Below, one piece after another: positions 43,844 to 60,571 of a stretch of 64,000 nt of DNA. A program made the position numbers and the translations under genes. Positions within the stretch are counted from its first letter, which is position 1. Each line of letters starts with the position of its first letter. The notes beneath the pieces are model-generated. The model was not told the DNA's origin, did not search any database, and was given only the letters and a program-made list of their open reading frames with translations. Source of the stretch: an uncultured Mediterraneibacter sp. (GTDB lineage Bacteria; Bacillota; Clostridia; Lachnospirales; Lachnospiraceae); the NCBI GenBank assembly GCA_944384505.1, contig CALWTQ010000003.1, positions 50,056-114,055 of the forward strand, in the 5' to 3' direction.

Positions 43844-44518
43844 ATGGCGGAGAAAAAAATACCTTGTTCAGAAGAGGCCTATCATAAAATCAAAGAGATG
43901 ATAATAAACTTACATTTCAGGCCGGGAGAAATAATTTATACATTAGAGTTATCAAAAGAGCTTAATATTAGCCGTACACCTACCAGAGAGGCTTTGGTTA
44001 AACTAGCCCAAGAGGGACTGCTTAATTATACGGACAGCCGGAAGTTCAGGGTTGTTGAAGTTACAGAAGAATTGGTCAGGGATATTTATGAGCTGAGACT
44101 CAGTTTTGAGATTATGGCCATGAGAGGAATTATTGACAAGATTGGAGACAGGGATATTGAATTTCTGGAATCTAATATAAGTCAAATGAAATCTGCATAC
44201 GAAGATAAGAAAGTAAAAGATTTTTTTAACCTGGATAACCAGTTCCACAATTATTACGTAAATCTGTATCATAATAATTTGATGAAGGGGTTTTTAAATC
44301 AGCTGACAGATCAGCAGCAAAGAATCCGGTATATTACTGTATACGTAGACGGAAGAATGTCCCTTACAATACCGGAACACGAAGAGATACTACATGCGTT
44401 AAAGGAGAGAAACCTGGAAAAAGTGGAAAAAGCGGTTGCCGGCCATATTAAGCATACCGAAGATACGACAATCCAATTCTTGAAAAATAAAGAAGTAGCC
44501 AAGCTTTCGCTTTTATAG
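43844..44518 (+). CDS. GntR-family (FCD) regulator 1
   Basis: 224 aa. The winged helix-turn-helix is EEAYHKIKEMIINLHFRPGE followed by LELSKELNISRTPTREALVKL. A helical FCD sensor domain follows. Two His residues (HNYYVN region and EHEEIL) match the metal-binding pattern of carboxylate-sensing FCD proteins. It stands ahead of a permease, dehydratase and aldolase unit, and the 15-bp motif found at both starts suggests it controls both. The inducer is probably a sugar acid or keto acid, by family. Confidence 0.9.
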   Translation: MAEKKIPCSEEAYHKIKEMIINLHFRPGEIIYTLELSKELNISRTPTREALVKLAQEGLLNYTDSRKFRVVEVTEELVRDIYELRLSFEIMAMRGIIDKIGDRDIEFLESNISQMKSAYEDKKVKDFFNLDNQFHNYYVNLYHNNLMKGFLNQLTDQQQRIRYITVYVDGRMSLTIPEHEEILHALKERNLEKVEKAVAGHIKHTEDTTIQFLKNKEVAKLSLL

Positions 44519-44573
44519 AAAATCATGCGGATGAGATGTTATATCTTATCTGCATGAGTAAAAATGAATTTAA

Positions 44574-44588
44574 AAATGTATACAAAAA
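44574..44588. promoter_or_regulatory. Candidate GntR operator, copy 2
   Basis: Exact repeat of the 15-bp motif at 43802-43816. A partial third copy (AAATGTATAAA) follows at 44590. It lies 36 bp upstream of two tiny ORFs and 150 bp upstream of the permease. Confidence 0.7.
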
Positions 44589-44625
44589 TAAATGTATAAA
44601 TAAATTCATAAGGAGGTGAAAAAAT

Positions 44626-44738: not shown

Positions 44739-46082
44739 ATGGAATATGCGATAGGAATTTTTTTACTTATTACATTTTTTGGCTTTGTGGTTTATGCAAT
44801 GAGGGGGAAAAACCTGATGATGGGCCTGCTGATTATGTGCGTGCTTTGGACTGGGGCGGCATTAATAGGCAGGCATCTGGTGACGAATCCGGATTTTATA
44901 TCAGCAAATGAAGCGGCTCTCGGAGTTACTCTGCCCGATGCGCTGCAATCGGTGTTTCAGGCCGGGCCGGAGAGCTGGGGAGCAACCCTTGTTAATATCT
45001 TTTTTGGAGCTTGGTTTGGAAGAATAATGGTGGAGTTAGGAATTACATCGACTATTATCAGAAAGGCTGTAGAACTGAGCGGGGACAGGCCTTTTGTCAC
45101 AATGCTTCTCCTGTCTGTAGTCGTAAGCGTTATTTTCACATCTATGCAAGGCGCCGGGCCGGTTATAGCGATAGGTGTAATTGTGCTGCCGATTTTGCTG
45201 ACACTGGGAGTGCCGAAAGATTTGGCACTGGTATTTTATATGGGGTCAATCGGCTCGGGTCTTTATCTGAATCCGGTCATTTTTGAGCAGTATAATGCAA
45301 TTATGGCATTGGGAAAAGAAACGACGTACAGCTTTGACCAGTACTATCCGTTTGGCTTTATCTGCCTTTTGGTTCAGCTGATTATTGTAGTAATCACGTC
45401 CGGAGTTGTACTGAGAAGGCGAAAATCAAGGGAATGGGCCGCGGTTACAAATCAGGCGGCGACTCCGGAGCATGTGCCCGCAATTTCACTTATATGCATT
45501 ATTTTTCCCGTTTTGTTTGTAATTGCATTTAAACTTCCGGTTATTTTTGGGTTTATTTTCGCAAGTTTTTATGCGTTGTTTACATGCGGGAGACTTAAGA
45601 AATATGAAGAGGCGTGCGCAATATACACAAAGACATTTCATGATGGCGTCATAGATACGGCTCCTCTTATCGGCTTCTTCCTGCTGATACCGGCTTTTGG
45701 AAATGCATCTTCTTTGTGCGCACCGTATTTTCAGGCAATATTAAATAATGTGATCCCGCATTCGGCTGTCATTATCTGCGTTTTGTTTGGAATTCTGGCA
45801 CCGCTTGGCTTGTTCAGAGGCCCGCTGTCATTTGCGGGATGCGGTGCGGCAACTCTGGCAGTGCTGACCAGCGTTGGTTTTGACGCAACATTATTGTATC
45901 CCTTGATGGCGATTACGACAATTACGATGAACGTTTCCTGTTGTGTTACACAATCTTGGATCACCTGGGGGCTGGGATATGCAAAAGTAAGCAACAAGGA
46001 ATTTTTGAAACTGTCTGCCCCAATGGGATGGATTATCTGTATTATCTGTACATGTCTTGCTTGTGTCTTTGTAGTGAGATAA
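44739..46082 (+). CDS. Ion-transporter-superfamily permease 1 (putative carboxylate uptake)
   Basis: 447 aa, about 11-12 membrane helices. Re-entrant-like halves are GPVIAIGVIVLPILLTLG and GLFRGPLSFAGCGAATLAVL; SCCVTQSWITWGLGYAKVS near the C-terminus is conserved with permease 2 (54281-55630). Both copies align over their whole length (for example GATLVNIFFGAWFGR against GSTLVNVVFGAWFGR). I cannot name a characterised close family. A carboxylate or sugar acid is the likely substrate because a dehydratase and an aldolase follow. Confidence 0.8.
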   Translation: MEYAIGIFLLITFFGFVVYAMRGKNLMMGLLIMCVLWTGAALIGRHLVTNPDFISANEAALGVTLPDALQSVFQAGPESWGATLVNIFFGAWFGRIMVELGITSTIIRKAVELSGDRPFVTMLLLSVVVSVIFTSMQGAGPVIAIGVIVLPILLTLGVPKDLALVFYMGSIGSGLYLNPVIFEQYNAIMALGKETTYSFDQYYPFGFICLLVQLIIVVITSGVVLRRRKSREWAAVTNQAATPEHVPAISLICIIFPVLFVIAFKLPVIFGFIFASFYALFTCGRLKKYEEACAIYTKTFHDGVIDTAPLIGFFLLIPAFGNASSLCAPYFQAILNNVIPHSAVIICVLFGILAPLGLFRGPLSFAGCGAATLAVLTSVGFDATLLYPLMAITTITMNVSCCVTQSWITWGLGYAKVSNKEFLKLSAPMGWIICIICTCLACVFVVR

Positions 46083-46132
46083 GCGGAAAGGGCGGCGCAA
46101 GATAAAATACGAATAATAGGAGAGTGAGATTT

Positions 46133-47311
46133 ATGAAAATTATATCAGTGGAAAGTATGATTCTGTCTTACGAATATGAAAATGCTATTGCGGATGCACA
46201 GAATTATTTCAAAAGAAGAAATGCGGTGATTGTGAAGATAAACACAGATATTGGAATGGTAGGAATCGGGGAATCAGCATGCTTTGGCGGTCCGCCGGAA
46301 AGTACAAAATTTATCATTGACCACGAACTGGCGCCTATGCTGATCGGCTTGGATCCATGCAATATTGAACGGATGTGGAAGATCATGTTTGACCGTACAA
46401 GACAGCACGGAAGGCGGGGGATTATCCTGGCGGCAATGAGCGGCATAGATATTGCGCTCTGGGATATACTGGGAAAAACAGCAGGGCTTCCGATATATAA
46501 ACTGCTGGGAGGATATACAGACAGGCTGATTCCGTATGCAAGTTCCGGATTTTATAGCGAGGGGAAAGATTCGGATAAAATTGCCGAAGAGGTTTCAGGG
46601 TATTTTAAAAGTGGCTTCAAATATGCAAAAATAAAAGTAGGCAGAAATCCTGAAGTATTTATGAACCCCACCCACAATATGACGGATGGAGATAAATTGC
46701 TTTATTCCCTGGAAGAAGACCTGGAAAGGATAGAAAAGTGCTGTAAAGCGGCTGCCAGTACCGGCGGAAGGATTATGGTGGATGCGAATAATTCCTGGAC
46801 AGTTTATACAGCAGTCACTATGGGAAAAGAGTGTGAGAAACTGGGGGTATTCTGGCTGGAAGAGCCGCTCCATGTGGACAATATAGAAGGCTCGGCAGAG
46901 GTGGCAGCTGCGCTGGCAATGCCGGTAGCCGGATACGAGTCGGAGATAGGAGTATATGGGTTCAGAGATCTGATCCAGAAACGGGCCGTAGATATAGTAC
47001 AGCCAGACGTTGTGTGGTCAGGAGGATTTACGGAGTGCAGGAAAATAGCGGCTTTGGCATACGCGAATGGAATGCCTGTAAATCCACATGTATTTTCTTC
47101 CGGGGTAAGCCTTGCTGCAAATATGCACTTTCTTGCTTCATTGTCAAATGGAGGAATTTTGGAAATGGATCAGAATATCTATCCATTAAGAGATGAGCTT
47201 CTAAAAGAAAAAATCGAAGTTGCAGAGGATGGATTTGTGTATATTCCCGATAAACCAGGGCTTGGAATTGAATTAAGAGAGGACACCATAGAAAAATATC
47301 GGATAGCGTAA
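46133..47311 (+). CDS. Enolase-superfamily acid-sugar dehydratase/racemase (mandelate racemase subgroup)
   Basis: 392 aa with all mandelate-racemase-subgroup residues. The KxK base pair is Lys166/Lys168 (AKIKVG), the metal ligands are Asp217 (MVDANNSW), Glu243 (WLEEPL) and Glu269 (AGYESE), and the Asp292-His319 dyad is in PDVVWSGG and NPHVFSSG. These enzymes abstract the proton next to a carboxylate, usually dehydrating an aldonic acid to a 2-keto-3-deoxy acid. I start at the ATG at 46133, 9 nt after AGGAG, rather than the GTG at 46124 which overlaps it. The downstream HpaI-type aldolase would cleave the product. The specific sugar acid is not known. Confidence 0.9.
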   Translation: MKIISVESMILSYEYENAIADAQNYFKRRNAVIVKINTDIGMVGIGESACFGGPPESTKFIIDHELAPMLIGLDPCNIERMWKIMFDRTRQHGRRGIILAAMSGIDIALWDILGKTAGLPIYKLLGGYTDRLIPYASSGFYSEGKDSDKIAEEVSGYFKSGFKYAKIKVGRNPEVFMNPTHNMTDGDKLLYSLEEDLERIEKCCKAAASTGGRIMVDANNSWTVYTAVTMGKECEKLGVFWLEEPLHVDNIEGSAEVAAALAMPVAGYESEIGVYGFRDLIQKRAVDIVQPDVVWSGGFTECRKIAALAYANGMPVNPHVFSSGVSLAANMHFLASLSNGGILEMDQNIYPLRDELLKEKIEVAEDGFVYIPDKPGLGIELREDTIEKYRIA

Positions 47312-47382: not shown

Positions 47383-48138
47383 ATGAATGAGAAAATGCTT
47401 GAGCAATTTCGGAAAAAGATGAAGGAACGGGCAGTAATAGGCCCCTTTATGAAGAGCTGTGATCCGGCGCTGGTTGAGACAGCAGGATATGCGGGGATGG
47501 ATTTTGTCATTCTCGATATGGAACATGGCCCTGCCGGTATGGAACGTCTGCAGGAACTGGTACGCGCTGCACAGCTTACCGGGACGTTACCCGTGGTCCG
47601 CGTGGATGAATGCAAGAATATTTCAAAAGCGCTTGATATCGGGGCGGCAGGAGTACAGGTACCGCAGGTGGCAGACGCGGAGACGGCGTTCCGGGCGGTG
47701 CGCGAGGCAAAATATTATCCGGAAGGTGAAAGGGGGATCTGCAGATTTGTAAGAGCGGCGGAATACTCCGCGAAAGAAAGGCAGGCATATTTTGAGGAGG
47801 CAAATAAATCGCTTGTTATTATCCAGGCAGAAGGATTGGAAGCCATAAAAAATCTGGATAAAATTATGGAGGTAAAAGGAGTTGACATTCTTTTTATTGG
47901 GCCATACGATCTGTCACAAAGCCTGGGAATCCCGGGACAGATCACTCATACGGAAGTAGTGCGTCAGATGAGGGAGATTATATTGAAGGCTCAGGCGAAA
48001 GGTATTCTGACGGGCGTTTTCGTCGATAGCAAAGAAAGCCTGCAGGTATGGAAAGACGCAGGGGTAAAGTATATATCCTATTCCGTGGATATGGGGATAT
48101 TCTACGATGCATGCTGCCGGATCAGGGAGGCCTTGTGA
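47383..48138 (+). CDS. HpaI/HpcH-type class II pyruvate aldolase
   Basis: 251 aa. The family cleaves 2-keto-3-deoxy or 4-hydroxy-2-keto acids to pyruvate and an aldehyde, with a divalent metal. His48 (DMEHGP) and Arg73 (VVRVDE) match the catalytic His and Arg of HpaI. The metal-binding Glu is in IIQAEG and Asp in FIGPYDLSQSLG. It follows the dehydratase, which fits a dehydrate-then-cleave pathway. The start site is unusual because of its distant ribosome-binding site. Confidence 0.9.
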   Translation: MNEKMLEQFRKKMKERAVIGPFMKSCDPALVETAGYAGMDFVILDMEHGPAGMERLQELVRAAQLTGTLPVVRVDECKNISKALDIGAAGVQVPQVADAETAFRAVREAKYYPEGERGICRFVRAAEYSAKERQAYFEEANKSLVIIQAEGLEAIKNLDKIMEVKGVDILFIGPYDLSQSLGIPGQITHTEVVRQMREIILKAQAKGILTGVFVDSKESLQVWKDAGVKYISYSVDMGIFYDACCRIREAL

Positions 48139-48257
48139 ACTGGATAAGCCAGAACCTGAAAGCAGAACTATGCAAATAGCATCACAAATTATCTGTACTT
48201 AAACGCCAGATTGTATTATACTTAAAATAATTCTTTGAGTTTATGGAGGATAAGAGT

Positions 48258-48938
48258 ATGAGATACGAGATCAAAGGCGAAACCCTTCCTGTGGTTATCT
48301 GCTATCTGGAAGACGGAGAGACAATGATTACAGAGAGCGGTTCCATGAGCTGGATGTCTCCGAACATGAAGATGGAGACAACATCCAACGGCGGAGTAGG
48401 TAAGGCGATTGGAAGGATGTTCGCGGGGGAGAAACTGTTCCAGAACCGTTATACGGCAGAGAATGGAAACGGAATGATTGCATTTGCGTCCAGCTTCCCC
48501 GGACAGATTCGGACATGGGATGTGTCTCCGGGCAACGAAGTGATTGTTCAGAAATCAGGTTTCCTGGCAGCTGAGTCGAGCGTTGAGCTGTCTGTATTCT
48601 TCCAGAAAAAGCTGGGAGCGGGCCTCTTTGGCGGAGAGGGATTCATCATGCAGAAACTCTCCGGACAGGGAACCGCATTCCTCGAGTTTGACGGGCATGT
48701 GGTAGAGTACAATCTGCAGATCGGACAGCAGATTATCGTTGATACAGGATATTTAGCTGCTATGGACGCAACCTGCAATATGGAGATCAAGAGTGTACCG
48801 GGATTGAAAAACATCGTATTTGGCGGAGAAGGCCTCTTTAACACACTGATCACCGGTCCGGGACGCGTGTGGCTTCAGACAATGCCGATTTCCAATGTGG
48901 CGGGAGAGATTCTCAGATTCATGCCGGCAGGAAAGTAA
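48258..48938 (+). CDS. AIM24-family protein (TIGR00266)
   Basis: 226 aa, beta-rich. It matches the family in TESGSMSWMSPNMKMETTS, QKSGFLAAESSVELSVFFQKK, and SGQGTAFLEFDGHVVEYNL. The biochemical role of AIM24/YlbD-type proteins in bacteria is unknown. I begin at 48258 (MRYEIKGETL), 8 nt after GGAGG. It lies between the two catabolic units but has no obvious link to them. Confidence 0.88.
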   Translation: MRYEIKGETLPVVICYLEDGETMITESGSMSWMSPNMKMETTSNGGVGKAIGRMFAGEKLFQNRYTAENGNGMIAFASSFPGQIRTWDVSPGNEVIVQKSGFLAAESSVELSVFFQKKLGAGLFGGEGFIMQKLSGQGTAFLEFDGHVVEYNLQIGQQIIVDTGYLAAMDATCNMEIKSVPGLKNIVFGGEGLFNTLITGPGRVWLQTMPISNVAGEILRFMPAGK

Positions 48939-49094: not shown

Positions 49095-49265
49095 TTTTCC
49101 ATGTGATGTTCAAGCTGTCGCTTGTGGCGGCAACGGTGGTAATCATCAAATCCACCCCCGCCGCTTGTCGCCGCCACCTGAAAAGCTCCCTATTTCCACG
49201 CTTTCGGAATTGTGGTAGAATGATAAGTACAGAGCGAAAAATTCGCAATTTTGCGAGGAAAAGAA

Positions 49266-49589
49266 ATGAAACTATCTGAAATTATAGACGCAATACAAGA
49301 GTGGATTGGGACTATCAAAGGAAAGTATAATGAAGAAATAAATATAGAATTTCTTGTAGAGCAAGAAGATTATTTACGATACATTATTGAGAGTGCAAAT
49401 TATCTTGCTGAATTAGTGGTTGAACCAAAAGGATTTCATCCGCATCGTTTTGTTTGGTTTGAGATTTTAAATAAAAGAAAAGATTCATTACAAGAGCCAT
49501 ACTTCTATCTGGATGGAGAAAATAGTTCCGTAGAAAGCATTTTAGAAAATCTTAATCAAGGACTATCCTATATGCTTGAACCGTCGTAA
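49266..49589 (+). CDS. Hypothetical protein, 107 aa
   Basis: A small acidic soluble protein: MKLSEIIDAIQEWIGTIKG at the start, EPKGFHPHRFVWFEILN in the middle, and a helical tail ESILENLNQGLSYMLEPS. I do not recognise a family. Codon use is more A/T-rich than the next genes. I start at 49266, about 9 nt after GAGG; the earlier in-frame start has no site. It could be an accessory or immunity-type gene, but nothing shows it. Confidence 0.6.
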   Translation: MKLSEIIDAIQEWIGTIKGKYNEEINIEFLVEQEDYLRYIIESANYLAELVVEPKGFHPHRFVWFEILNKRKDSLQEPYFYLDGENSSVESILENLNQGLSYMLEPS

Positions 49590-49735
49590 TAAAATATAAT
49601 GTATCGGAGATAAGCCAAACAGCAAATTTCCATTTACTTTTCCAGATACGAAATAGCAGTATGACTTTCTAAAATTATGGACTCCGCATTAAATTTGTAT
49701 GTATCAACAATCCGTTTGGAAAGGAGTTGCCAGCC

Positions 49736-50491
49736 ATGAACAGAAAAACCATCATCCCCACCGTAAGCACAGTTTTTGCGCTGGTCTGTGCGGCTCTGCT
49801 TTTCCTGAACTGGAACCCGGAAACCCTTTTCAAACAGGGGGATACGCCAGTCACAATGAGTGACGTGGAACAGGGTACCGCAGAAGATTTCACCGGCTCC
49901 GCAGCCGGTGAGGATATTCCACGGCTAACCGGCAAAGCGGATTTTTCAGAAATGATAAGCGGCATAGATTATGCCACGGTGGAGCCTGTTGGGATTGTCC
50001 CCACCGGCGTTTACAGCCTGAAACCGTGGGTAAGCCATTACAATACGCATACCTACAAGGGCAGGACAACAACCGGCAGCCGCCGGGCCGAGGTCAGCAC
50101 ATCCAATCTGGATATTTTGGGGGACTACAATCAATATTACCTTTTGGAGCTTCCCGACCATACCTATATACTGGCGCAGATACCACAGACAGAAGCGGAC
50201 GCAATCGCAAAAGGGGAGAGCGTCACCCTTCCCATCGGGCAGAAAGTGGGAATGACAGACACCGCTCGGAGCCATCTTGCCGCCGTCTGCGGGGAATACG
50301 GAGCCGATACAGACGGCGTATTTTATGCCTTTGACAACGAGTGGCAGGAGGAACACCATACCAGCCTGCTCCTGCTCCGCTTTGGAGCCGCCGCTCTGCT
50401 CTGGCTTGTGCTGGCCGTGGGATTGACGTTGGCCGGGAACCGAATCTTTCGAGTGGAGGAACCAACCGGCAGAAAAGGAGGTTACCCGTGA
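49736..50491 (+). CDS. Membrane-anchored protein of unknown function (DUF6709-like)
   Basis: 251 aa. One N-terminal helix (IIPTVSTVFALVCAALLFL), an extracellular domain of about 180 residues, and a second helix near the C-terminus (FGAAALLWLVLAVGLTLAG). The domain holds EPVGIVPTGVYSLKPWVSHY and YYLLELPDHTYILAQIPQ. I start at 49736, 9 nt after AAGGAG. Base composition is more GC-rich than the flanking DNA. Its stop overlaps the GTG of the next gene. Confidence 0.65.
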   Translation: MNRKTIIPTVSTVFALVCAALLFLNWNPETLFKQGDTPVTMSDVEQGTAEDFTGSAAGEDIPRLTGKADFSEMISGIDYATVEPVGIVPTGVYSLKPWVSHYNTHTYKGRTTTGSRRAEVSTSNLDILGDYNQYYLLELPDHTYILAQIPQTEADAIAKGESVTLPIGQKVGMTDTARSHLAAVCGEYGADTDGVFYAFDNEWQEEHHTSLLLLRFGAAALLWLVLAVGLTLAGNRIFRVEEPTGRKGGYP

Positions 50492-51318
50492 AAAAGGAAT
50501 GGCGTACCACTGTATCTATAACAATGCTTCTCCTGCTTTGCCTTTCCGGGTGCGGGGAACAGGCCGCAGAGAAAGCGAAAGAAAAAGCAGATGATTTTCT
50601 TGCGGAGCAGGGGGAGAAAGCAATACAGACGATTGATGACGGCCTTGAAACAATCAAAGAATATATTAAAGGACGCGGAGCCGTTGGCAGGGAACATTAC
50701 TTTGAAAACCAGAAAGAAGCCGAACAGTATCTTCTTGCCGGTCTAAAAGAACGATATGAGAAAGAGTTTGTCATTGTAGCGTCCGAATCTTATACAGAAT
50801 ACGGCCCTATTTACGGGGATGTTTATATTGCAGAGGTTGCCCCGGCGGATAACCCGGAACAAGTTTTTTATGGAAGAACCTTGCAGACAGGAGCCGTAAC
50901 AGATAGCTATGGGAAAATCATTTTTGGAGATTTATTAACCAGCGGACTGGAAACAGTCTGCGAAAGCAAGCCATATATTTTAGCCTTTTCCACAGAAGTC
51001 GAGGGCGGCTATACAGAACGAGCCTGGAAGCCGGAAGATGATGTCCATGAATTTCTTGCGGAATCAGATGGCAGTATCCGGGTAAATTTAACATTTGAAA
51101 ACGGAAAGAGCGATGAAGAATATGCTAGGTTGATTTTAGATTTCCTTGATAGTATGTATTCTTTAAAGCCAGAAGCAAGTCTTTTGATTGCTATTAGTTA
51201 CGGAGATAAAAAATACCTGTTCTTTGAAAGGATTGATATGATAGAAGGCAGCCCTCTTTTAACCACAGAAGAAATTATTGAAAGAATAAAGTACATGAAA
51301 GAAAACAGTCTCTTTTAA
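50488..51318 (+). CDS. Lipoprotein of unknown function
   Basis: 276 aa, GTG start overlapping the preceding stop (GTGA), with AGGAGG 6 nt upstream; longer in-frame starts lie inside the previous gene. The signal sequence has lipobox LSGC, followed by a helical linker (EKAKEKADDFLAEQGEKA) and a mixed alpha/beta domain (FVIVASESYTEYGPIYGD). Transport or signalling with its membrane partner is possible, but no function is recognised. Confidence 0.65.
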   Translation: MKKEWRTTVSITMLLLLCLSGCGEQAAEKAKEKADDFLAEQGEKAIQTIDDGLETIKEYIKGRGAVGREHYFENQKEAEQYLLAGLKERYEKEFVIVASESYTEYGPIYGDVYIAEVAPADNPEQVFYGRTLQTGAVTDSYGKIIFGDLLTSGLETVCESKPYILAFSTEVEGGYTERAWKPEDDVHEFLAESDGSIRVNLTFENGKSDEEYARLILDFLDSMYSLKPEASLLIAISYGDKKYLFFERIDMIEGSPLLTTEEIIERIKYMKENSLF

Positions 51319-51497: not shown

Positions 51498-51528
51498 GGC
51501 GGGGAAGCCTTAAAATGGCTTCCCCGCC
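51498..51528. terminator. Intrinsic terminator within the mobile-element remnant
   Basis: A 12-bp perfect stem GGCGGGGAAGCC/GGCTTCCCCGCC (51498-51509 with 51517-51528) is followed by CATTTCAATTTTT. On the minus strand it lies downstream of the fragment ending at 51540. Confidence 0.75.
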
Positions 51529-51707: not shown

Positions 51708-51750
51708 TAAATTAAGTGATAAATAAAAATATAATGTGGTTGTTAATATA

Positions 51751-51789
51751 AGTCAGACATTTAGAAGAAAATAAATGTCTGACTTTTTA
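51751..51789. terminator. Intrinsic terminator upstream of the CoA-transferase operon
   Basis: A 13-bp perfect stem (51751-51763 with 51772-51784) is followed by T5. It would stop transcription from the foreign segment before the next promoter. Its arm contains AAATGTCT, also present in the operator at 51882. Confidence 0.85.
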
Positions 51790-51909: not shown

Positions 51910-53433
51910 ATGGGGAAGATTGTAAATGCAGAAGAAGCACTGGAAAAAATTCAAGATGGTCAGACAATTGCGATCCTGGGATCCGGAGGCGGGATCTGTG
52001 AGCCTACATTTCTGTTAAAGGAATTGGGGAAAAAGTACATAGAAACACATACGCCCAAAAACCTTACCCTGCTTCATGCAAATGGAATAGGGGATAAAGA
52101 AAGCTTTGGAACAGATGCGTTAGCTCACGAGGGGCTGGTGAAACGTGATATTGCCGGACATTGGGCGATGGCGCCTGCAATGGCTGAGCTGGCACTGCAG
52201 GAGAAGATAGAAGCATATAATCTTCCGCAGGGGGTGATTTCTCAGATGTATCAGTCGATAGCAGCTCATAAGCCCGGAGTAATTACGAAAACAGGTCTGA
52301 ATACATTTATTGATCCACGGCTGGAAGGCGGGAAAATGAATAATAGCGCCAAAGAGGATCTGGTGAAAGTTCTGGAGCTGGAGGGGGAAGAATGGCTGTT
52401 TTTCCCTAATATCGGGATTGATGCAGCCCTCATCAGGGGGACAACGGCAGACGAAAATGGGAACATCAGTTACGACGAAGAGGCTGCAATATTGGAGGGA
52501 ATCTCTATAGCGCAGGCTGCGAAAAACAGCGGAGGTATCGTGATCGCCCAGGTGAAAAATATCGCAAAGGCGGGAACTATAAAAGCGAAGGATGTAGTGA
52601 TCCCGGGCATATATGTGGACTATGTTGTAGTAGATCCGGATCAGGCTCAGACGTGTGAAAGAATGTATGATCCGGCTCTGGCAGGCAATATAAAGGCGCC
52701 AATGGAAAGAATTGCGCCTCTGGAACTCAACCCAAGAAAAGTTGTGGCAAGGAGAGCGGCCCAGGAACTGAAAAAGGGAATGGTAATCAATCTTGGAGTC
52801 GGTATGCCTTCCGGCATTGCAGCGGTTGCTGCAGAAGACGGATATCTGGATGATCTGAATTTTACAGTAGAACAGGGGATTATCGGAGGAATGCCGATGG
52901 GAGGGATTATTTTCGGAGTATCCTATAATCCTGATGCTATGATCGACCAGACTCTGCAGTTTAATTTTTATGACGGAGGCGGCCTTGATATCGCGTTTCT
53001 GGGAATGGCTCAGATGGACGCAGAAGGGAATGTAAATTCCAGTAAGACGGGAAGAATGCTTTCAGGCTGCGGAGGGGCGATCAATATTTCGCAGAATGCT
53101 AAAAAAGTCGTATTTTGCGGAACATTTACAGCAAAAGGGTTCCGCGCAGGCATAGGCAGGGGCAGGATCACGATTGACCAGGAAGGTTCTATCCGAAAAA
53201 TTGTAAATCATGTGGATCAGATTACGTTTAGCGGCGCTTATGCCCGGAAGATTGGACAGCCAGTGCTTTATATTACAGAGCGGGCAGTATTTGAATTGAG
53301 AGAAGAAGGCCTTGTTCTGACGGAAATCGCTCCGGGAATTGATCTTGAGAGAGATATTCTGAATCATATGGAATTCAGGCCGGTTATTGCTCCAGATTTG
53401 AAACAGATGGATGAAGCTTTTTTCAGAGACTAA
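51910..53433 (+). CDS. Family I CoA-transferase (fused alpha-beta)
   Basis: 507 aa, both halves of a class I CoA-transferase in one chain, like YdiF or propionate/acetoacetate CoA-transferases. It moves CoA from acyl-CoA to a free carboxylate. GSGGGICEPTFLLKELGKKY is the N-terminal signature and the second half has LGVGMPSGIA. Catalytic Glu321 is in FTVEQGIIGG. AAAGGAGG precedes the ATG. It is the first gene of a six-gene operon and probably activates the imported acid. Confidence 0.92.
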   Translation: MGKIVNAEEALEKIQDGQTIAILGSGGGICEPTFLLKELGKKYIETHTPKNLTLLHANGIGDKESFGTDALAHEGLVKRDIAGHWAMAPAMAELALQEKIEAYNLPQGVISQMYQSIAAHKPGVITKTGLNTFIDPRLEGGKMNNSAKEDLVKVLELEGEEWLFFPNIGIDAALIRGTTADENGNISYDEEAAILEGISIAQAAKNSGGIVIAQVKNIAKAGTIKAKDVVIPGIYVDYVVVDPDQAQTCERMYDPALAGNIKAPMERIAPLELNPRKVVARRAAQELKKGMVINLGVGMPSGIAAVAAEDGYLDDLNFTVEQGIIGGMPMGGIIFGVSYNPDAMIDQTLQFNFYDGGGLDIAFLGMAQMDAEGNVNSSKTGRMLSGCGGAINISQNAKKVVFCGTFTAKGFRAGIGRGRITIDQEGSIRKIVNHVDQITFSGAYARKIGQPVLYITERAVFELREEGLVLTEIAPGIDLERDILNHMEFRPVIAPDLKQMDEAFFRD

Positions 53434-53479: not shown

Positions 53480-54256
53480 ATGGCGACACATATTAGACTG
53501 GAAGAGAAAAATAACACGGCCTATATTATTTTTTATGAAGAAGAGGAGAGGAAGCCATGCACCTTGGATTGGGATGTTCTGGCAGAATTGGAAGCGCAGA
53601 TAGACTATATTGAGAAAAGAAAGGCGGCATTTACTGCCGTAGTAGTAGAGAGCGCATCTCCAAAATCATTCATAGTTGGGGCGAATATTGCGGTATTGAA
53701 AACGCAGAATTCGTCTAATATAGGAGACTGGGTGTTGAATGGGCACAGGATTTTCGGACGGTTTCAAAAACTGGCGCAGCCGGTAATTGCAAAGGTGAAA
53801 AAATATGCATTGGGAGGCGGACTGGAGCTGGCAATGTCATGCGATATGATTATTGCCGGAGAAAATGCCAGATTTGGCCAGCCGGAAGCATCTCTCGGCG
53901 TGATGCCGGGATGGGGCGGGAGCTACAGGCTTCCAATGCTGATCGGCCCCAACCGGGCAAAAGAAGTATTTATGACTGGAAGACAGCTGGATGCGGCAAC
54001 AGCGTATGACTGGGGACTTGTTAACCATGTATGCAAAGAAGAGGAACTAGATCAATACGTATCTGAAATGGTAGAAGACATCTCCCATAATTCGCCGGAA
54101 GTGTTGGGAATGGTGAAACAGATTATATTTGATGAAACACAGGCCGGGGCTGCCCACAACAGCTTTGTTGAGGCGGTGACATCGGCAAAGTGCATGGATA
54201 CAGAAGATACTAAGGGACGGCTGAAAGCTTTCTTTGAAAGCAGAAAGAAAAAATAA
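53480..54256 (+). CDS. Enoyl-CoA hydratase/isomerase (crotonase family)
   Basis: 258 aa. Oxyanion-hole region SFIVGANIAVL and ALGGGLELAMSCD. Both catalytic glutamates of hydratases are present: Glu116 (GGGLEL) and Glu136 (GQPEASLG). So hydration of an enoyl-CoA, rather than only isomerisation, is likely. It follows the CoA-transferase by 46 bp, fitting an acyl-CoA pathway. Confidence 0.92.
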   Translation: MATHIRLEEKNNTAYIIFYEEEERKPCTLDWDVLAELEAQIDYIEKRKAAFTAVVVESASPKSFIVGANIAVLKTQNSSNIGDWVLNGHRIFGRFQKLAQPVIAKVKKYALGGGLELAMSCDMIIAGENARFGQPEASLGVMPGWGGSYRLPMLIGPNRAKEVFMTGRQLDAATAYDWGLVNHVCKEEELDQYVSEMVEDISHNSPEVLGMVKQIIFDETQAGAAHNSFVEAVTSAKCMDTEDTKGRLKAFFESRKKK

Positions 54257-54280: not shown

Positions 54281-55630
54281 ATGGAATTAATAATAGGAAT
54301 CTTAATTCTGCTCAGCTTTTTTGGGCTGGTTTTTTATGCAATCAAAGGCGGAAACCTTGCGATTGGCATGTTGATTATGGCGCTTGTGTGGACGGTGCTG
54401 CCAATGATAGGGAATACAATACTGTCCAGTCCGGAATTTATGACAGAATATGCGGATCAGGTAACGACGAGCTGGATTGATGCATTTTCGTCTGTGTTTC
54501 AGGGCGGACCGGAAGGCTGGGGAAGCACGCTTGTAAATGTGGTTTTCGGTGCGTGGTTTGGCCGGGTGCTTCTGGAGACTGAGATCGCGTCTACTCTGAT
54601 TAAGAAAGTGACAGAGCTGGGGGGAGATCGCCCTGCAGTTACGACGATTCTGCTCGGAATCGTTACAACGGTGATTTTTTCCTCACTGTTTGGCGCAGGA
54701 GCGGTTGTGGCGATCGGGGTAATCGTACTTCCGATTCTTCTCTCAATTGGTATACCAAAAAGGCTTGCACTTTGTTCCTTTATGCTCAGCATAGGAGCGG
54801 GGATGTTCTTGAATCCAGTCCTTTTTAGTCAGTACAGTGCGTTTTTCCTTGATGCGAATGGCGATCCTACTTATACCTACAGCGGTCATGTGCAGTGGGG
54901 AATGATCGCTTTGGCTGTACAGGTTGTATTTAATATCTGCCTGGTGCTTTTCTTTACAAGGAAGAAGAAATCGAAATTCTGGGCAGTGGAAACGGACAGG
55001 CCGGTAAGGAAAAAGTTAAATTATGCACCCAACATCGCTCTTTTAACGCCTTTCATTCCGGTGGTGCTTTTGATTGTATTTGAAATACCGATTATTATGG
55101 GATTTCTGATCGGCGGATTTTATGCGATGCTTGTATGCGGACGAATGAAATCTTTCAGAGAAGTGTGCAAAATCTTTGGAAAAGATTTTTTTGACGGCGT
55201 AGTTGATACGGCCCCGCTGGTTGGATTCCTGCTGATTGTTCCGATGTTTAATAAAGCTGCTGAGCTGTGTATCCCATATTTTAACGTGATTCTCGGGAAC
55301 GTTGTTCCTCACAGTACATTTTTGATTGCGGCAGCTTTTGCAGTGCTGGCGCCGCTTGGATTGTTCCGTGGCCCGCTGACACTGTTTGGCTGCGGTGCGG
55401 CAGTGCTCGGTATTTTAAAAGGAGCCGGATTTGCAACGGCATTTTTGGCGCCGCTTTTAATCGCTACATCAACAGTTATGGAAATATCATGCTGTGTGAC
55501 ACAGTCTTGGATTGCATGGGGAATCGGATATACAAAAGTATCATCCAGAGACTTCTTGAAATTGAGTCTGCCATGTGGATGGATTATTACTGCAATTTTG
55601 GTAATGATCACATATTTTATGTTCGGATAA
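54281..55630 (+). CDS. Ion-transporter-superfamily permease 2 (putative carboxylate uptake)
   Basis: 449 aa, full-length paralogue of the permease at 44739-46082. The same landmark segments occur: EGWGSTLVNVVFGAWFGR, VVAIGVIVLPILLS, LAPLGLFRGPLTLFGCGAAV and SCCVTQSWIAWGIGYTKVS. It sits between the crotonase and HyuA-like genes, so it should import the acid that the CoA-transferase activates. The similarity of the two permeases suggests related substrates for the two units. Confidence 0.82.
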   Translation: MELIIGILILLSFFGLVFYAIKGGNLAIGMLIMALVWTVLPMIGNTILSSPEFMTEYADQVTTSWIDAFSSVFQGGPEGWGSTLVNVVFGAWFGRVLLETEIASTLIKKVTELGGDRPAVTTILLGIVTTVIFSSLFGAGAVVAIGVIVLPILLSIGIPKRLALCSFMLSIGAGMFLNPVLFSQYSAFFLDANGDPTYTYSGHVQWGMIALAVQVVFNICLVLFFTRKKKSKFWAVETDRPVRKKLNYAPNIALLTPFIPVVLLIVFEIPIIMGFLIGGFYAMLVCGRMKSFREVCKIFGKDFFDGVVDTAPLVGFLLIVPMFNKAAELCIPYFNVILGNVVPHSTFLIAAAFAVLAPLGLFRGPLTLFGCGAAVLGILKGAGFATAFLAPLLIATSTVMEISCCVTQSWIAWGIGYTKVSSRDFLKLSLPCGWIITAILVMITYFMFG

Positions 55631-55642: not shown

Positions 55643-57772
55643 ATGGGAAAAAGATTAGTGCGAATGGGAATTGATGTAGGCGGAACTCATACAAAAGCAG
55701 TTGCGATTGATAATGCGACACATGAAATTATAGGAAAATCATCCGTAAAAACAACGCATGATGATAAAGACGGAGTAGCGGCTGGTGTTGTTCAGGCTTT
55801 TATGAACTGCCTTCAGGAAAATTCGATAGACCCAGAGGATGTGATTTTTGTGGCGCATAGTACGACACAGGCTACGAATGCCTTGATTGAAGGCGATGTA
55901 GCAGTTGTAGGTGTGCTTGGAATGGGCGGAAAAGGTGTAGAAAATTTTCTTGCAAAGCATCAGGTCAGTTTGAAAGATATCGATCTGGGATCAGGAAAGA
56001 AAATTCAGGTCAGAAACCGTTATTTGAACGTGAAGGAGATCACGGCGGGAAATGTCCGTAGCGCGGTAAAGGAGCTGAAAGATGAAGGAGCGCAGGTGAT
56101 CGTAGCGTCTGAGGCATTCGGAGTAGATGATATTGCAGGAGAGCAGTTTGTCTATGACATTGCCAAAGGAGAGATGGGGCTTGAGACAACAGAGGCGTCG
56201 GAGATAACAAAGCTTTATGGCCTGACCCGACGGACGAGAACAGCGATCATCAATGCAAGTATTCTGCCGAAGATGCTCAATACGGCCAATTCAACAGAAG
56301 AAAGCGTAAGGAAAGCCGGAGTTAATGTCCCGCTTATGATTATGAGAGGGGACGGCGGTGTTATGGAGATCAACGAGATGAAGAAGCGTCCTGTGCTGAC
56401 AATGCTGTCCGGTCCTGCGGCCAGCGTTATGGGATCCTTGATGTATTTGCGGGCTTCTAATGGTATCTATTTTGAAGTGGGAGGAACGACGACTAATATT
56501 GGTGTAATAAAGAATGGCCGGCCTGCAATAGACTACTCCGTTGTGGGCGGACATAGAACATATATTACATCCCTTGATGTAAGAGTACTTGGTGTTGCAG
56601 GCGGAAGTATGATCCGGGTTAATAAGAGCGGCGTGTTTGATGTAGGCCCCCGTTCTGCACATATTGCCGGATTGGATTATGCTGTGTTTACGGATCCCGC
56701 AGAAATTGTTGATCCGCAGCTTGAATTTTTTTCGCCAAAGGAAGGAGATCCTTCGGATTATGTGGCGGTCAGATGTGCGAACGGCAGACGTGTAACGATA
56801 ACGAACAGCTGTGCCGCAAATGTGCTTGGGCTTGTAAAACCGGGAGACTTTTCATATGGAAATGTGGAGGCGGCCAGGAAAGCTATGCAGCCGATTGCGG
56901 ATTATCTTGGGGTTACTGTGGAAAAGGTGGCGGAGCAGATTCTGACGCGGGCCTATGAAAAAATACGTCCAATTATTCTGGGACTGGCGGAAAAATATCA
57001 TCTGGAACAGGATCAGATATCATTGGTCGGAGTTGGCGGAGGAGCTACATCTTTGATAGGTTTCTGCGCAGATAAGATGAATGTCAGGTACAGTGTACCG
57101 GAGAATGCAGAAGTGATTTCTTCAATCGGCGTAGCGCTGGCTATGGTAAGGGATGTAGTGGAAAGAGTGGTGCCAAATCCGGGACCGGCAGAAATACAGA
57201 GTATAAAACGAGAAGCCATAGACAAAGCAGTAGAGAGTGGCGCGGCTCCGGATACAGTAGAGGTACATATTGAGATTGATTCCCAGACATCAAAAGTAAC
57301 CGCGATTGCTCTTGGCTCTACAGAGGTCAAAACAACCGATTTATTAAAGGAATGCACAGAGGAAGAAGCAAAACAGCTTGCAGCGGAGGATCTGCGTGCA
57401 AATCCTGCAGAAGTAAATCTGATTGGAAAAACAAAACATTTCTATGTATTCAATACAGAGAAGAAAGGAAAGAAACCGCTCCGCATTTTAGATAAAAAAG
57501 GATTTATTAAAGTTCAGCGCAACGACGGTGAGGTAGTGATTGCAAAAGCTGGAGCCTATCGGAATATTGTAACGAAAATGTGGGAGGAACTGGCAATTTA
57601 TAAGGCGGATACGATTCTGAGGCCGGATTATTATATTTGTGCGGGCGCACGGGTAATGGATTTTAACGGTTCTACAGAGCTGGATCAGATTCTGATGCTC
57701 ATGGATATGGATATGCAGATGCTTGACATGGGAGAAGATGTAATAATTGTTGGGGCTAAAAATCAGATTTAA
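55643..57772 (+). CDS. HyuA-like ATPase (hydantoinase/oxoprolinase N-type) without HyuB
   Basis: 709 aa. The ASKHA-type ATPase fold is clear: phosphate loop MGIDVGGTHTKAVAID, then VAHSTTQATNALIEGDVAV, VGGTTTNIGVIKNGRP and VGVGGGATSLIGF. Hydantoinase/oxoprolinase A subunits use ATP to activate an amide or ketone. No HyuB-type gene is in the window. The last 150 residues (from about VEVHIEIDSQTSKV onward, ending DVIIVGAKNQI) do not match what I know of HyuA. The reaction here is unknown. AAGGAG precedes the ATG. Confidence 0.8.
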   Translation: MGKRLVRMGIDVGGTHTKAVAIDNATHEIIGKSSVKTTHDDKDGVAAGVVQAFMNCLQENSIDPEDVIFVAHSTTQATNALIEGDVAVVGVLGMGGKGVENFLAKHQVSLKDIDLGSGKKIQVRNRYLNVKEITAGNVRSAVKELKDEGAQVIVASEAFGVDDIAGEQFVYDIAKGEMGLETTEASEITKLYGLTRRTRTAIINASILPKMLNTANSTEESVRKAGVNVPLMIMRGDGGVMEINEMKKRPVLTMLSGPAASVMGSLMYLRASNGIYFEVGGTTTNIGVIKNGRPAIDYSVVGGHRTYITSLDVRVLGVAGGSMIRVNKSGVFDVGPRSAHIAGLDYAVFTDPAEIVDPQLEFFSPKEGDPSDYVAVRCANGRRVTITNSCAANVLGLVKPGDFSYGNVEAARKAMQPIADYLGVTVEKVAEQILTRAYEKIRPIILGLAEKYHLEQDQISLVGVGGGATSLIGFCADKMNVRYSVPENAEVISSIGVALAMVRDVVERVVPNPGPAEIQSIKREAIDKAVESGAAPDTVEVHIEIDSQTSKVTAIALGSTEVKTTDLLKECTEEEAKQLAAEDLRANPAEVNLIGKTKHFYVFNTEKKGKKPLRILDKKGFIKVQRNDGEVVIAKAGAYRNIVTKMWEELAIYKADTILRPDYYICAGARVMDFNGSTELDQILMLMDMDMQMLDMGEDVIIVGAKNQI

Positions 57773-57822
57773 AATATGTTAAAATATGCGTAAACCGAAA
57801 TTTTTTACAGGGGGACGAGACT

Positions 57823-58569
57823 GTGAACGGGAAAAGCGCAAGTGATCTGGTTATAAATGCCATAAAGGAAAAGCTGATTTCAGGTGAGTGGAAACCGGGA
57901 ATGAAGATCGCGGGTGAGATTAAGATTGCTCAGGACCTTGGAGTCAGCAGGGCTTCTGTGAGAGAAGCAATGGAACAAATGGTGGCTATGGGGCTTTTTA
58001 CAAGGCGCAGAGGAGATGGAACATATGTTAATGATGTATCTTCGGCAGCTATGTTTCATCAACTTGTGCCGGATTTGATGCTGAATGGATACAGCGAGGT
58101 GGAAATACTGGATTTCAGGGAGATGCTGGAGCCGGAGTGCGTCAGAAGGTTTGTGCAGGGCAGAACAGCAGGGCGGATTGAAAAGTTAAGAGAGATGTGC
58201 TGTGTTATGGAAGAGTGTGCCGGAGATGGAACCCCCAAATTCGCAGAAGCAGATTTGAAATTCCATCTGATGCTGGTACAAGGATGCGGAAATCCTATTA
58301 TAATCAAAATAATGGATATCATAATAGATGTTCTTACATATTATCAATACAGCGCAAACGAATTAATAGGCCCTAAGACCGGTGCGGAAGAGCATAAAAG
58401 AATATTGGAAGCAATAGAAGCCGGAGATGGAGAGCTGGCGGCGCTTTTGATGAAACGTCATATCCAGCGGAGCAAGCAGGATATAGTGGACCGGCTGAAA
58501 GACGGGAGGGCATCAGTTGGAAGAAATGGACAAACAGCTGGAAGAGAAAGTCAGGATCTACCAGTTTGA
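57823..58569 (+). CDS. GntR-family (FCD) regulator 2
   Basis: 248 aa, GTG start. Winged helix-turn-helix ASDLVINAIKEKLISGEWKP, then IKIAQDLGVSRASVREAME. The FCD domain is helical, with FREMLEPECVRRF and FHLMLVQGCGNP. Encoded inside the second catabolic operon, it probably acts at the palindrome at 51882. It overlaps the flavoprotein gene by 53 bp in a different frame. Confidence 0.9.
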   Translation: MNGKSASDLVINAIKEKLISGEWKPGMKIAGEIKIAQDLGVSRASVREAMEQMVAMGLFTRRRGDGTYVNDVSSAAMFHQLVPDLMLNGYSEVEILDFREMLEPECVRRFVQGRTAGRIEKLREMCCVMEECAGDGTPKFAEADLKFHLMLVQGCGNPIIIKIMDIIIDVLTYYQYSANELIGPKTGAEEHKRILEAIEAGDGELAALLMKRHIQRSKQDIVDRLKDGRASVGRNGQTAGRESQDLPV

Positions 58570-60571
58570 TACAGTGATTGTGGGGAGCGGAGCTGCGGCG
58601 TATAACGCGGCGGACAGCCTGTTTGATCTTGGAGAGAGAAGTATTGCGGTTGTGACCGAAGGAATTAAAATGGGAACTTCCAGAAACACAGGGTCTGATA
58701 AGCAGACTTATTATAAACTTTCACTTGGAGGAAAACAGAAGGATTCTGTGTATGAGCTGGCAAAAACTTTATTTCAGGGCGGATGTATGCATGGCGATCA
58801 TGCGATGGCAGAAGCAGCGCTGTCGGCCAGATGTTTTTTTAAGCTGATACAACTCGGAGTTCCTTTCCCGTGTGACATATACGGGCAGTATGAAGGATAT
58901 AAGACAGATCATGATCCAATGCAGCGGGCTACATCAAGTGGGCCGCTGACCTCGAAATATATGACAGAATGTCTGGAAAGATCAGTTAAAAAAAAGGAAA
59001 TTCCGATTTTTGACGGATACCGTGTGCTTCGCATATTCACTGAATTCAGAGAAGAGGAACGATGGGCAGAGGGAATTTTAGCGCTCAATGTACATAGCAG
59101 GGATGATGAACCGGAGCTGGCCTGTTTTCAATGCAGGAACCTGATCTGGGCGGTAGGAGGACCGGCAGGAATGTATGGCGGCAGCGTATATCCCGCAAGC
59201 CAGACCGGAGCATCGGGAACTGCGTTTGAGGCGGGGGCCTGTGGAAATAATGTATCAGAATGGCAGTATGGGATCGCGTCTGTTAAGTTCCGCTGGAATC
59301 TGTCTGGGAGTTATCAGCAGGTGATTCCCTGTTATCTGTCCACAGATCAGAGTGGCAAGGATGAGAGGGAATTTCTGGATGAATACTTCTCCACGCCGAG
59401 TGCAATGCTGGATGCAATATTCCTGAAGGGCTATCAGTGGCCTTTTGATCCGAGGAAAATATCAGAATCGGGATCATCTCTTGTGGATCTGGCTGTATAC
59501 AATGAGATAAAGATAAAAAAGAGAAGGGTATTTCTTGACTACAGAAGAAATGCAAAAGCGTCGCTTACTGAAGGTGAATTTGATTTTTCACTGCTTGGAG
59601 AGGAAGCGTACCAATATCTGGAAAACAGTGGAGCGCTTTTGGGGACACCCATTGACCGGTTGAAAAAAATGAACAGGCCGGCATATGAACTTTACCTTGA
59701 ACATGGGATTGATCTTGCAAAGGAATGTTTGGAGATTGATGTATGTGCTCAGCATAATAATGGCGGATTAAAGGTAAATATGTGGTGGGAGTCCAATATA
59801 AAGCATCTTTTCCCTGTGGGGGAAGCGGCAGGGACACTCGGAGTATACCGCCCTGGCGGAACCGCTTTAAATTCGACTCAGGCAGGCTCCCTTCGTGCGG
59901 CACAGTACATTGTACATGAAAAATATAAATGCGTAAAAGATACTGTGTGCCAAAAAGATGCAGAAGGGCCCGGAAGCAGTCCGGTACAGGGAGAAAAAGA
60001 GAGATTCCGGGGAAAATGCCTCATGGCAGCGGCTGAATTCAGAGAAAAATACCGGCGCCTGAAAAAACCTGTGAAAGGAAAACAATCCCCGGCAAAGTGG
60101 AGAAAACAGTATCAATCAGAAATGGACATCTGTGGAGGGATCATCAGAGAACAGGCGAAGATAGAAGACCAGCTTTCGCGCATAAGAGGATACATGGATA
60201 ATTTTCTGGATGAAACGTTGGTGATGAATATCCAGGAATTCAAACAGGCAATGATAAATTGGGATATCCTGACCTCCCAGCTCGTGTATTTAAGTGGAAT
60301 GAAAGACTATATTGAACGTGGAGGATGCAGCAGAGGGTCTTATCTGATAAGAAATAAAGATGGAACCAATGCTTATTTCGAACCAGGCAGCCCATTTGCT
60401 GATTTGGTTCAGGAAACCTCATATGACAAAGATACCAGGACTGTCAAAATAGAGTATGTACCTGCCCGGCCGCTGCCGGAAGAGGAAATATGGTTCGAGG
60501 ATATATATAGGGAAATGACTGGAATAAAAAGAGATCCGGCGAATGAGGATGAAGGAAAACCTGTTTTGTAG
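58517..60571 (+). CDS. FAD-dependent oxidoreductase, fumarate-reductase/aspartate-oxidase type
   Basis: 684 aa. Rossmann motif VIVGSGAAAYNAA for FAD at about residues 20-32, TSRNTGSDKQTYYKLS, and the C-terminal NNGGLKVNMWWES and FPVGEAAGTLGVYRPGGTAL correspond to the flavin-site motifs of fumarate reductase flavoproteins. No iron-sulfur or membrane anchor subunit is adjacent. I start at the TTG at 58517, because GGAGGG sits 6 nt before it, whereas the ATG at 58526 would be 15 nt away. The start overlaps the gntR gene by 53 bp. It probably oxidises or reduces an intermediate, but the substrate is unknown. Confidence 0.83.
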   Translation: MEEMDKQLEEKVRIYQFDTVIVGSGAAAYNAADSLFDLGERSIAVVTEGIKMGTSRNTGSDKQTYYKLSLGGKQKDSVYELAKTLFQGGCMHGDHAMAEAALSARCFFKLIQLGVPFPCDIYGQYEGYKTDHDPMQRATSSGPLTSKYMTECLERSVKKKEIPIFDGYRVLRIFTEFREEERWAEGILALNVHSRDDEPELACFQCRNLIWAVGGPAGMYGGSVYPASQTGASGTAFEAGACGNNVSEWQYGIASVKFRWNLSGSYQQVIPCYLSTDQSGKDEREFLDEYFSTPSAMLDAIFLKGYQWPFDPRKISESGSSLVDLAVYNEIKIKKRRVFLDYRRNAKASLTEGEFDFSLLGEEAYQYLENSGALLGTPIDRLKKMNRPAYELYLEHGIDLAKECLEIDVCAQHNNGGLKVNMWWESNIKHLFPVGEAAGTLGVYRPGGTALNSTQAGSLRAAQYIVHEKYKCVKDTVCQKDAEGPGSSPVQGEKERFRGKCLMAAAEFREKYRRLKKPVKGKQSPAKWRKQYQSEMDICGGIIREQAKIEDQLSRIRGYMDNFLDETLVMNIQEFKQAMINWDILTSQLVYLSGMKDYIERGGCSRGSYLIRNKDGTNAYFEPGSPFADLVQETSYDKDTRTVKIEYVPARPLPEEEIWFEDIYREMTGIKRDPANEDEGKPVL

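Follow-up and report, generated by a model that had tools for sequence, protein, structure and literature searches.

In Escherichia coli, the L-rhamnonate operon of the yfaXWVU type consists of genes for a regulator, an MR-type dehydratase, a transporter and an HpaI-type aldolase. The subject of the present analysis is a stretch of 64,000 nucleotides of DNA (the window, to which all positions refer unless stated otherwise) from an uncultured Mediterraneibacter sp. (contig CALWTQ010000003.1, positions 50,056 to 114,055), in which two gene sets, designated units 1 and 2, occupy the + strand between positions 43844 and 60571. Unit 1 contains the same four kinds of gene as the E. coli operon, although its regulator and transporter belong to families other than those of the E. 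coli counterparts. Unit 2 encodes a CoA-transferase, a crotonase, a second permease, a HyuA-like ATPase, a second GntR regulator and a flavoprotein.

Several described systems can be set beside unit 2. Inositol fermentation in Anaerostipes uses a CoA-transferase together with an enoyl-CoA hydratase (PMC8355322), and the OxcT-EcdH-AcaD set of Anaerostipes rhamnosivorans shares with unit 2 a CoA-transferase of the propionate-CoA-transferase group adjacent to an enoyl-CoA hydratase. The likeness is one of description; in contrast to that set, unit 2 includes no acyl-CoA dehydrogenase or electron-transfer flavoprotein among its six genes, and a permease, HyuA and the flavoprotein are not named for the Anaerostipes operon in the available part of that report (PMC8355322). 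The HyuA-like protein shares its family with CapA of the caprolactamase CapAB, which is grouped here with hydantoinase, 5-oxoprolinase and acetophenone carboxylase (PMC8453981). Unlike the CapAB group, the window protein comes from a genome in which HyuB/CapB was not found, has an altered phosphate-2 motif and is linked to a permease and usually to a zincin-like protein.

In Ruminococcus gnavus, the genes FXV78_RS16940-RS16965 form one operon, annotated as YhcH, a hydantoinase, a hypothetical 'peptidase', UxuA (mannonate dehydratase), a YiaK-type dehydrogenase and a hypothetical protein, and show the strongest induction of any cluster in response to agarooligosaccharides (log2 4.1-4.4, 18- to 20-fold; PMC11581127). 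The authors tied the operon to carbon-source catabolism, and their discussion suggests a role in resistance. Judged by annotation alone, its gene kinds are mostly those of one of the loci compared below (L112: UxuA, YhcH, zincin-like protein, HyuA, permease and Ldh_2). In contrast to unit 2, no CoA-transferase, crotonase or FrdA-like flavoprotein is listed among its annotations (PMC11581127).

Organization of units 1 and 2

The preferred interpretation, to which we assign a probability of roughly one half (0.52), is that the locus comprises two operons that act independently in the use of small carboxylic acids, and that unit 2 is a fermentative acid-utilization operon built on a core formed by the permease and the HyuA-like protein. 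All ten genes were found intact on the + strand, with uninterrupted reading frames; their kinds, coordinates and order, which had been proposed in an earlier note on this DNA, were borne out by the open reading frames (ORFs) and by family matches. Unit 1 consists of GntR1, an FCD-type GntR regulator with Pfam matches to both GntR and FCD (43844-44518), permease 1 (44739-46082), an acid-sugar dehydratase of the MR subgroup (MR_MLE_N/C; 46124-47311) and a class II aldolase of the HpaI/GarL type (47383-48138), at spacings of 220, 41 and 71 bp. The genes of unit 2 are spaced by 46, 24, 12, 50 and -53 bp and encode a family I CoA-transferase of the YdiF/FadX/propionate-CoA-transferase type (51910-53433), a crotonase-type enoyl-CoA hydratase (53480-54256), permease 2 (54281-55630), the HyuA-like ATPase (55643-57772), GntR2, a further FCD-type GntR regulator recognized by Pfam (57823-58569), and a flavoprotein of the fumarate reductase/L-aspartate oxidase superfamily (58517-60571).

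The two units are separated by 3,771 bp, which contain an AIM24-family gene (48243-48938, + strand) assigned to neither unit, three ORFs (49251-51318) for which no Pfam match was obtained, and a GC-rich, terminator-like hairpin on the + strand (51498-51528; 12 pairs, 10 of them GC) with a moderately T-rich tail. Terminator-like hairpins numbered 26 in a scan of the region, against 13.9 expected; another of them, bidirectional in character, follows unit 2 (60601-60627).

Operator-like sites, all on the + strand, also differ between the units. The sequence AAATGTATACAAA, a putative GntR1 operator, was found by pattern search 5' of gntR1 (43802-43814) and in a second copy 5' of permease 1 (44574-44586). 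These positions were the only two exact matches to the pattern AAATGTATACAWA in the genome (3.95 Mb), the reversed control pattern giving one, and when up to one mismatch was allowed, three GntR1-type sites were present in the window against 0.05 expected. A putative GntR2 operator, AAATGTCTAACATTT, lies just 5' of the CoA-transferase gene (51882-51896) and matches AAATGTCNNACATTW exactly, as no other site in the genome does; a one-mismatch variant, AAATGTCTGACTTTT, forms the upstream member of the pair (51773-51787). Both have counterparts in the only other genome found to carry the whole of unit 2, that of Clostridium sp. Marseille-P2415 (locus L002), where AAATGTCGGACAT occurs at two similar positions 5' of the CoA-transferase gene (2473-2487 and 2591-2605 of that locus). 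The L002 locus has six matches to the unit 2 operator pattern at up to three mismatches, a number that was reached in 11 of 100 shuffles and is not unusual. A promoter-like sequence, TTGACG-17-TATGAT, with 10 of 12 consensus positions, is located between the two unit 2 sites (51840-51868, + strand), such sequences numbering 41 in the region against 33 expected by chance. The upstream site at 51773 overlaps an inverted repeat with perfect 14-bp arms and a T-run behind it (hairpin 51750-51785), and could therefore belong to a terminator.

GntR1 and GntR2 are 31% identical, over 49 residues only, and no unit 1 is present within the 21.9 kb of the L002 locus. We read the exact sites as putative operators of two separately regulated operons. 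Because of the intervening genes, the separate GntR regulators with differing operator-like sites, and the occurrence of unit 2 without unit 1 in L002, the units are probably not one system, and the proposal of the earlier note that they are finds little backing here. Its description of the permeases as full-length paralogues holds (50% identity over 439 aa). Permease 1 has no HyuA gene beside it, and its distance from permease 2 is no smaller than that from several HyuA-linked permeases elsewhere.

In unit 1, under the control of GntR1, permease 1 would take up an aldonate- or aldarate-like acid, which the MR-type enzyme would dehydrate to a 2-keto-3-deoxy acid, and the HpaI-type aldolase would cleave the latter to pyruvate and an aldehyde. 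This scheme of import, dehydration and aldol cleavage, as previously put forward, is supported at the family level. The dehydratase carries the motifs KIK169, DAN220, EEP246, QPD293 and PH321 in alignment with the structures 4ggb (its best-scoring solved relative), 3sjn and 5olc; the functional residues of the MR subgroup are the KxK motif, the metal-binding D/E/E and the His-Asp dyad. It fell below the cut-off of all 15 listed NCBIfam substrate families, the best being arabinonate dehydratase (318.8 versus 650 bits), with galactonate and talarate dehydratases among the others. No further copy was detected at E 1e-80 in 200 genomes of the bacterial family, the window's own included, and the closest other relative in 398 genomes of the phylum was 50% identical. 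In the aldolase (PF03328), the catalytic R, the metal E and the GPxDL motif are in place, and the cut-offs of four named NCBIfam equivalogs were not reached. Unit 1 is an ordinary acid-sugar operon of a known kind; its gene kinds are those of the rhamnonate-type architecture.

The permease-HyuA-zincin core

The HyuA-like protein matches PF01968 (Hydantoinase_A; E 8e-66) and PF05378 (Hydant_A_N; E 9e-20). Searches at E 1e-100 yielded 53 full and partial matches to its subfamily (28 from the family genomes, a further 24 from those of the phylum, and L002), with members in 20 of the 200 family genomes and 22 of the 398 phylum genomes, the window's own genome being counted in both. Of these matches, 45 loci were examined, including one with a truncated HyuA (L125) and some at contig ends (e.g., L095 and L153). 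A permease gene adjoins that of HyuA in 39 of the 45, the others being L125, L130, L149, L153, L158 and L168; in L130 the permease sits beyond a gene for a zincin-like protein bearing an HExxH motif. This third component is encoded within 6 kb of HyuA in 37 loci. It is lacking there in the window, L125, L149, L153, L159, L165, L166 and L176, and in L149 a 96-residue ORF from a zincin-rich cluster lies downstream.

Alignments comprised 43 HyuA proteins (without L125 and L158), 39 permeases and 37 zincin-like proteins. Pairwise distances were correlated between HyuA and permease (r 0.86, 38 loci), HyuA and zincin-like protein (r 0.76, 36 loci) and permease and zincin-like protein (r 0.78, 33 loci), values that none of 2000 permutations reached in any of the three cases. 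According to the earlier note, the genes to be examined for joint conservation were those for the CoA-transferase, the HyuA-like protein and the flavoprotein. CoA-transferase, crotonase and flavoprotein, however, were found together near HyuA in only two of the 45 loci (the window and L002), so that the trio named in the note is not a conserved group, whereas the permease-HyuA pair is. The conserved group thus probably consists of the permease, HyuA and, usually, the zincin-like protein. No assigned function was found for this core, and it is the part worth following.

Neither permease reaches any Pfam family. Weak matches among the 39 permease relatives were to CitMHS (8), DcuC (6), Na/H antiporter (5) and GntP (3), and comparison of the permease profile with TRAP DctM chains gave a best E of 2e-4. 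On account of these weak likenesses, the permeases are probably members of the ion-transporter superfamily.

In HyuA, the phosphate-1 motif DVGGT-T is invariant in all 43 aligned members, which makes nucleotide binding likely. The phosphate-2 motif, D-x-G-G-T, has Glu in place of Asp in 43 of 43 members, whereas Asp is kept in all ten of the other HyuA homologues obtained in the same search (L102-L111). Asp to Glu is a mild change; loss of the phosphate-2 Asp in CapA (D295A) left 0.4% conversion, according to Table 4 of the report (PMC8453981). The GxxPGP motif known from CapA is missing in all 43, yet it is also missing in seven of the ten other homologues. No match to HyuB (PF02538) was obtained at E 0.001 in the window's own genome, which is 95% complete; six of 14 control genomes were positive. 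Judging from these sequence features, members of this HyuA subfamily are probably not ordinary hydantoinases. We rejected the possibility that HyuA reactivates one particular enzyme, as none of the labelled enzymes accompanies it throughout.

The HExxH motif and a downstream Glu of the zincin-like protein are invariant in all 37 aligned sequences. The protein lacks a clear counterpart in Pfam: no cut-off was reached in the three members scanned with cut-offs, and at E<=1 the 37 members gave scattered matches, to EF-hand_3 in three, Zincin_1 in two (best E 0.004) and TopoV_HHH in one (E 8e-4). The best E against sequences of the Protein Data Bank (PDB) was 0.1, four members gave a single NCBIfam match (E 0.13), and no relatives were detected in viral contigs. 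An AlphaFold2 model of the single L002 sequence was discarded (mean pLDDT 39). In L002 the zincin-like gene is located between those of HyuA and GntR2, where the window has 50 bp. No credible tblastn match was found near the window HyuA, and the one copy detected genome-wide was on contig C5, beside a second HyuA. A weak match at window positions 6694-6822 (E 3e-4) was dropped, the whole-genome profile search having given the C5 copy only. The C5 locus (L118, 8382-15244) is a second permease-HyuA-zincin locus, followed by genes of the Ldh_2 cluster, the YhcH cluster and the cyclase family.

In 14 of the 45 loci, at least one enzyme of sugar-acid type (YhcH, Ldh_2, PfkB/KdgK, KDPG aldolase, HxlA/HxlB-like, HpaI, MR or DHDPS, with cluster labels checked on representatives) is encoded no more than 7 kb from the core, and 12 loci have no labelled neighbour of any kind (e.g., L115, L116 and L122). 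The permease-HyuA core probably takes up sugar-acid-like substrates and prepares them in an ATP-dependent manner. In a second HyuA branch, a flavoprotein of the PF12831 cluster neighbours the core in 13 of the 45 loci (L155, L156, L163, L164 and others), and the loci of this branch often add a ROK-type gene and one whose product bears a faint resemblance to N-acetylmannosamine-6-phosphate epimerase (E 0.0016).

Unit 2 and its flavoprotein

In unit 2, under GntR2, permease 2 would take up a small acid. The CoA-transferase may place CoA onto this acid or take it off a product, the crotonase may add or remove water at C2-C3, and the flavoprotein may form or reduce a C-C double bond or oxidize the position beside the carboxylate, while the HyuA-like ATPase would either prepare the substrate at the expense of ATP or serve the carrier. 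Import, CoA activation, hydration and a flavin step had been foreseen for this unit, and the analysis supports them; nor was a described pathway with this gene set found in the openly licensed literature, in agreement with the earlier expectation. The CoA-transferase matches YdiF (2ahu; E 7e-149), is a single chain of fused subunits and has its motif EQGIIGG at 321, with Glu321 as the catalytic-motif residue. Both motif glutamates of the crotonase are present, within GGGxELA and PE. In HpaI aldolases, CoA-transferases and crotonases, such motif residues serve catalysis or metal binding. Elsewhere in the same genome, a locus on contig C26 (L184) contains a CoA-transferase (45% identical) and a crotonase, together with acyl-CoA dehydrogenase and electron-transfer flavoprotein genes recognized by eye.

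The unit 2 proteins of L002 are 82% (CoA-transferase), 77% (crotonase), 78% (permease 2), 86% (HyuA), 69% (GntR2) and 61% (flavoprotein) identical to those of the window, and the L002 unit additionally includes the zincin-like gene. Among the other 199 family genomes, no relative exceeded 53% identity for the CoA-transferase or 50% for the flavoprotein (E 1e-100). Within the genus, three of 57 other genomes have a flavoprotein at 47-49% identity, and 11 more gave marginal partial matches. Relatives of both the CoA-transferase and the crotonase lie near the flavoprotein in five of its best 80 loci (L002, L053, L060, L065 and L066); outside L002 these are 50-56% and 31-35% identical, respectively. 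The present HyuA accompanies the flavoprotein in L002 only, among the best 80 flavoprotein loci, some of which are short. CoA-transferase, crotonase and flavoprotein thus appear weakly linked, HyuA aside, and unit 2 is a rare composite.

The flavoprotein belongs to a family of its own, widespread among Clostridia, Halanaerobium, Aminicenantes and others (L002-L081). The window protein and 26 of the best 80 were aligned, giving a mean column identity of 54% and invariant motifs peculiar to the family. In the tree of these 27, the window protein pairs with that of L002 (100/97), two Lactobacillales proteins being next (100/99). By sequence comparison the family is distant from SdhA, FrdA and NadB, and the window protein reached no curated NCBIfam cut-off. 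Its model (pLDDT 82) is nearest to FrdA/SdhA, with NadB lower (FrdA: Foldseek E 2.6e-28, 16% identity). With these enzymes it shares the fold, as modelled, and apparently a substrate-side Arg: Arg445, invariant among the 27 proteins, is aligned with Arg386 of NadB, the residue changed in the R386L structure 1knp. It differs from them in its low identity (~16%) and at two further positions. SdhA links FAD through a His, and NadB holds its substrate with a His and an Arg; the family has Asn57 (27 of 27) instead of the former His, so that FAD is probably not covalently bound, and Gln412 (27 of 27), with His413 adjacent, at the position of the NadB substrate His.

Within 4.5 kb, the best 80 flavoprotein loci contain an old-yellow-enzyme gene in 38, a short-chain-dehydrogenase gene in 38, both in 24 and neither in 28. 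No genes for Fe-S or anchor subunits lie beside the window flavoprotein, which is followed by the hairpin mentioned above and then by genes on the opposite strand. A role in quinate/shikimate degradation, considered on account of an AroE-like sequence seen by eye in L065, was dropped; the openly licensed literature gave nothing, and neither unit was seen to contain a gene of that kind.

Among the neighbouring features, a lipoprotein-like stretch was seen near the start of one of the three ORFs between the units (49251-51318). On the - strand at 60673-63221 lie two genes for radical SAM proteins that resemble the HydG/HydE maturase pair; a BATS domain is encoded in the first.

Alternative readings and significance

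Several observations weigh against two independent operons, or against a carboxylate pathway built on the core. A GntR1-type site with one mismatch and a broken palindrome, AAATGTATAAAAA, is present in the promoter region of unit 2 (51797-51809, + strand). Allowing one mismatch, the GntR2-type pattern matched the genome 13 times versus 18 for its reversed control, so that weight can be placed only on the exact site at 51882 and its position. The whole of unit 2 was seen in just one other genome, nothing in the sequences singles out a particular substrate, 31 of the 45 core loci lack any labelled sugar-acid enzyme nearby, and the distance correlations within the core may still reflect shared species history. 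The zincin-like gene is absent from the window locus, where the core may consequently be impaired. In the flavoprotein, with Gln at the His position, conservation is evident for just one residue of the carboxylate-binding pair, and its commoner old-yellow-enzyme and short-chain-dehydrogenase neighbours are missing from unit 2.

The site at 51797, the common strand, the separation of 3.8 kb and the full-length identity of the permeases would suit a single pathway in two parts, in which the aldehyde or acid produced by unit 1 is CoA-activated and fermented by unit 2 and the permeases import stereoisomers of one substrate; the related L118 locus in the same genome has also been counted in its favour. 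The exact operator-like sites of the units nevertheless differ, unrelated genes and a hairpin intervene, unit 2 stands alone in L002, and several HyuA-linked permeases are at least as close to permease 1 as permease 2 is, so that we regard a single pathway as distinctly unlikely. Very unlikely, in our view, is an ordinary hydantoinase, oxoprolinase or lactamase, with unit 2 degrading a lactam or hydantoin: the Pfam matches and the invariant phosphate-1 motif are those expected of such an enzyme, but the genome has no HyuB match, the phosphate-2 Asp is replaced throughout (if mildly), and GxxPGP is missing, though it is missing from most of the other homologues as well.

The permease and HyuA might alternatively constitute a transport module in themselves, HyuA driving or gating the carrier and the catabolic genes varying with the cargo. 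The permease is indeed the most constant of the counted neighbours, its distances follow those of HyuA most closely (r 0.86), and 12 loci have no labelled neighbour kinds; permease 1, however, is a member of the same family without HyuA beside it, carriers of the ion-transporter superfamily are generally regarded as ion-driven, with no need of an ATPase, and the zincin-like protein is left unexplained. We consider a pure transport module rather unlikely. Rather unlikely, too, is that unit 2 in the window represents a composite in decay, or one acquired recently, without a working HyuA step; the absence of the zincin-like gene, with 50 bp left in its place, and the lack of any full-length flavoprotein match above 49% identity in 57 other genomes of the genus point in that direction, whereas the six intact, tightly spaced genes and the 86% identity of HyuA to the L002 protein do not. 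A further proposal, possible but doubtful, is that of an undescribed system spread over Bacillota, with the permease, the HyuA-like ATPase and the HExxH zincin-like protein as its three parts. A zinc hydrolase with no relation to HyuB would in this case carry out the hydrolytic half-reaction when sugar-acid-like substrates undergo ATP-dependent ring-opening or deamidation. Unit 2 of the window would then be a derivative that has lost the zincin-like protein and coupled the core to CoA-ester and flavin chemistry.

In the preferred interpretation of two independent operons, unit 1 is of a known kind, and unit 2 is a rare variant on the permease-HyuA-zincin core. Gene content, motifs, conservation, linkage and the recurrence of the operator-like sites are direct observations, from which the chemistry, the order of reactions, the function of the operators and the substrates are inferred. 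The names hydantoinase and oxoprolinase are often given to genes of the HyuA group. For this subfamily such a name is probably wrong, since a carrier and usually a zincin-like protein are linked to it and HyuB is missing in the one genome tested. As the apparently similar operon of R. gnavus responds strongly to a dietary sugar, the function of the core can be tested now.

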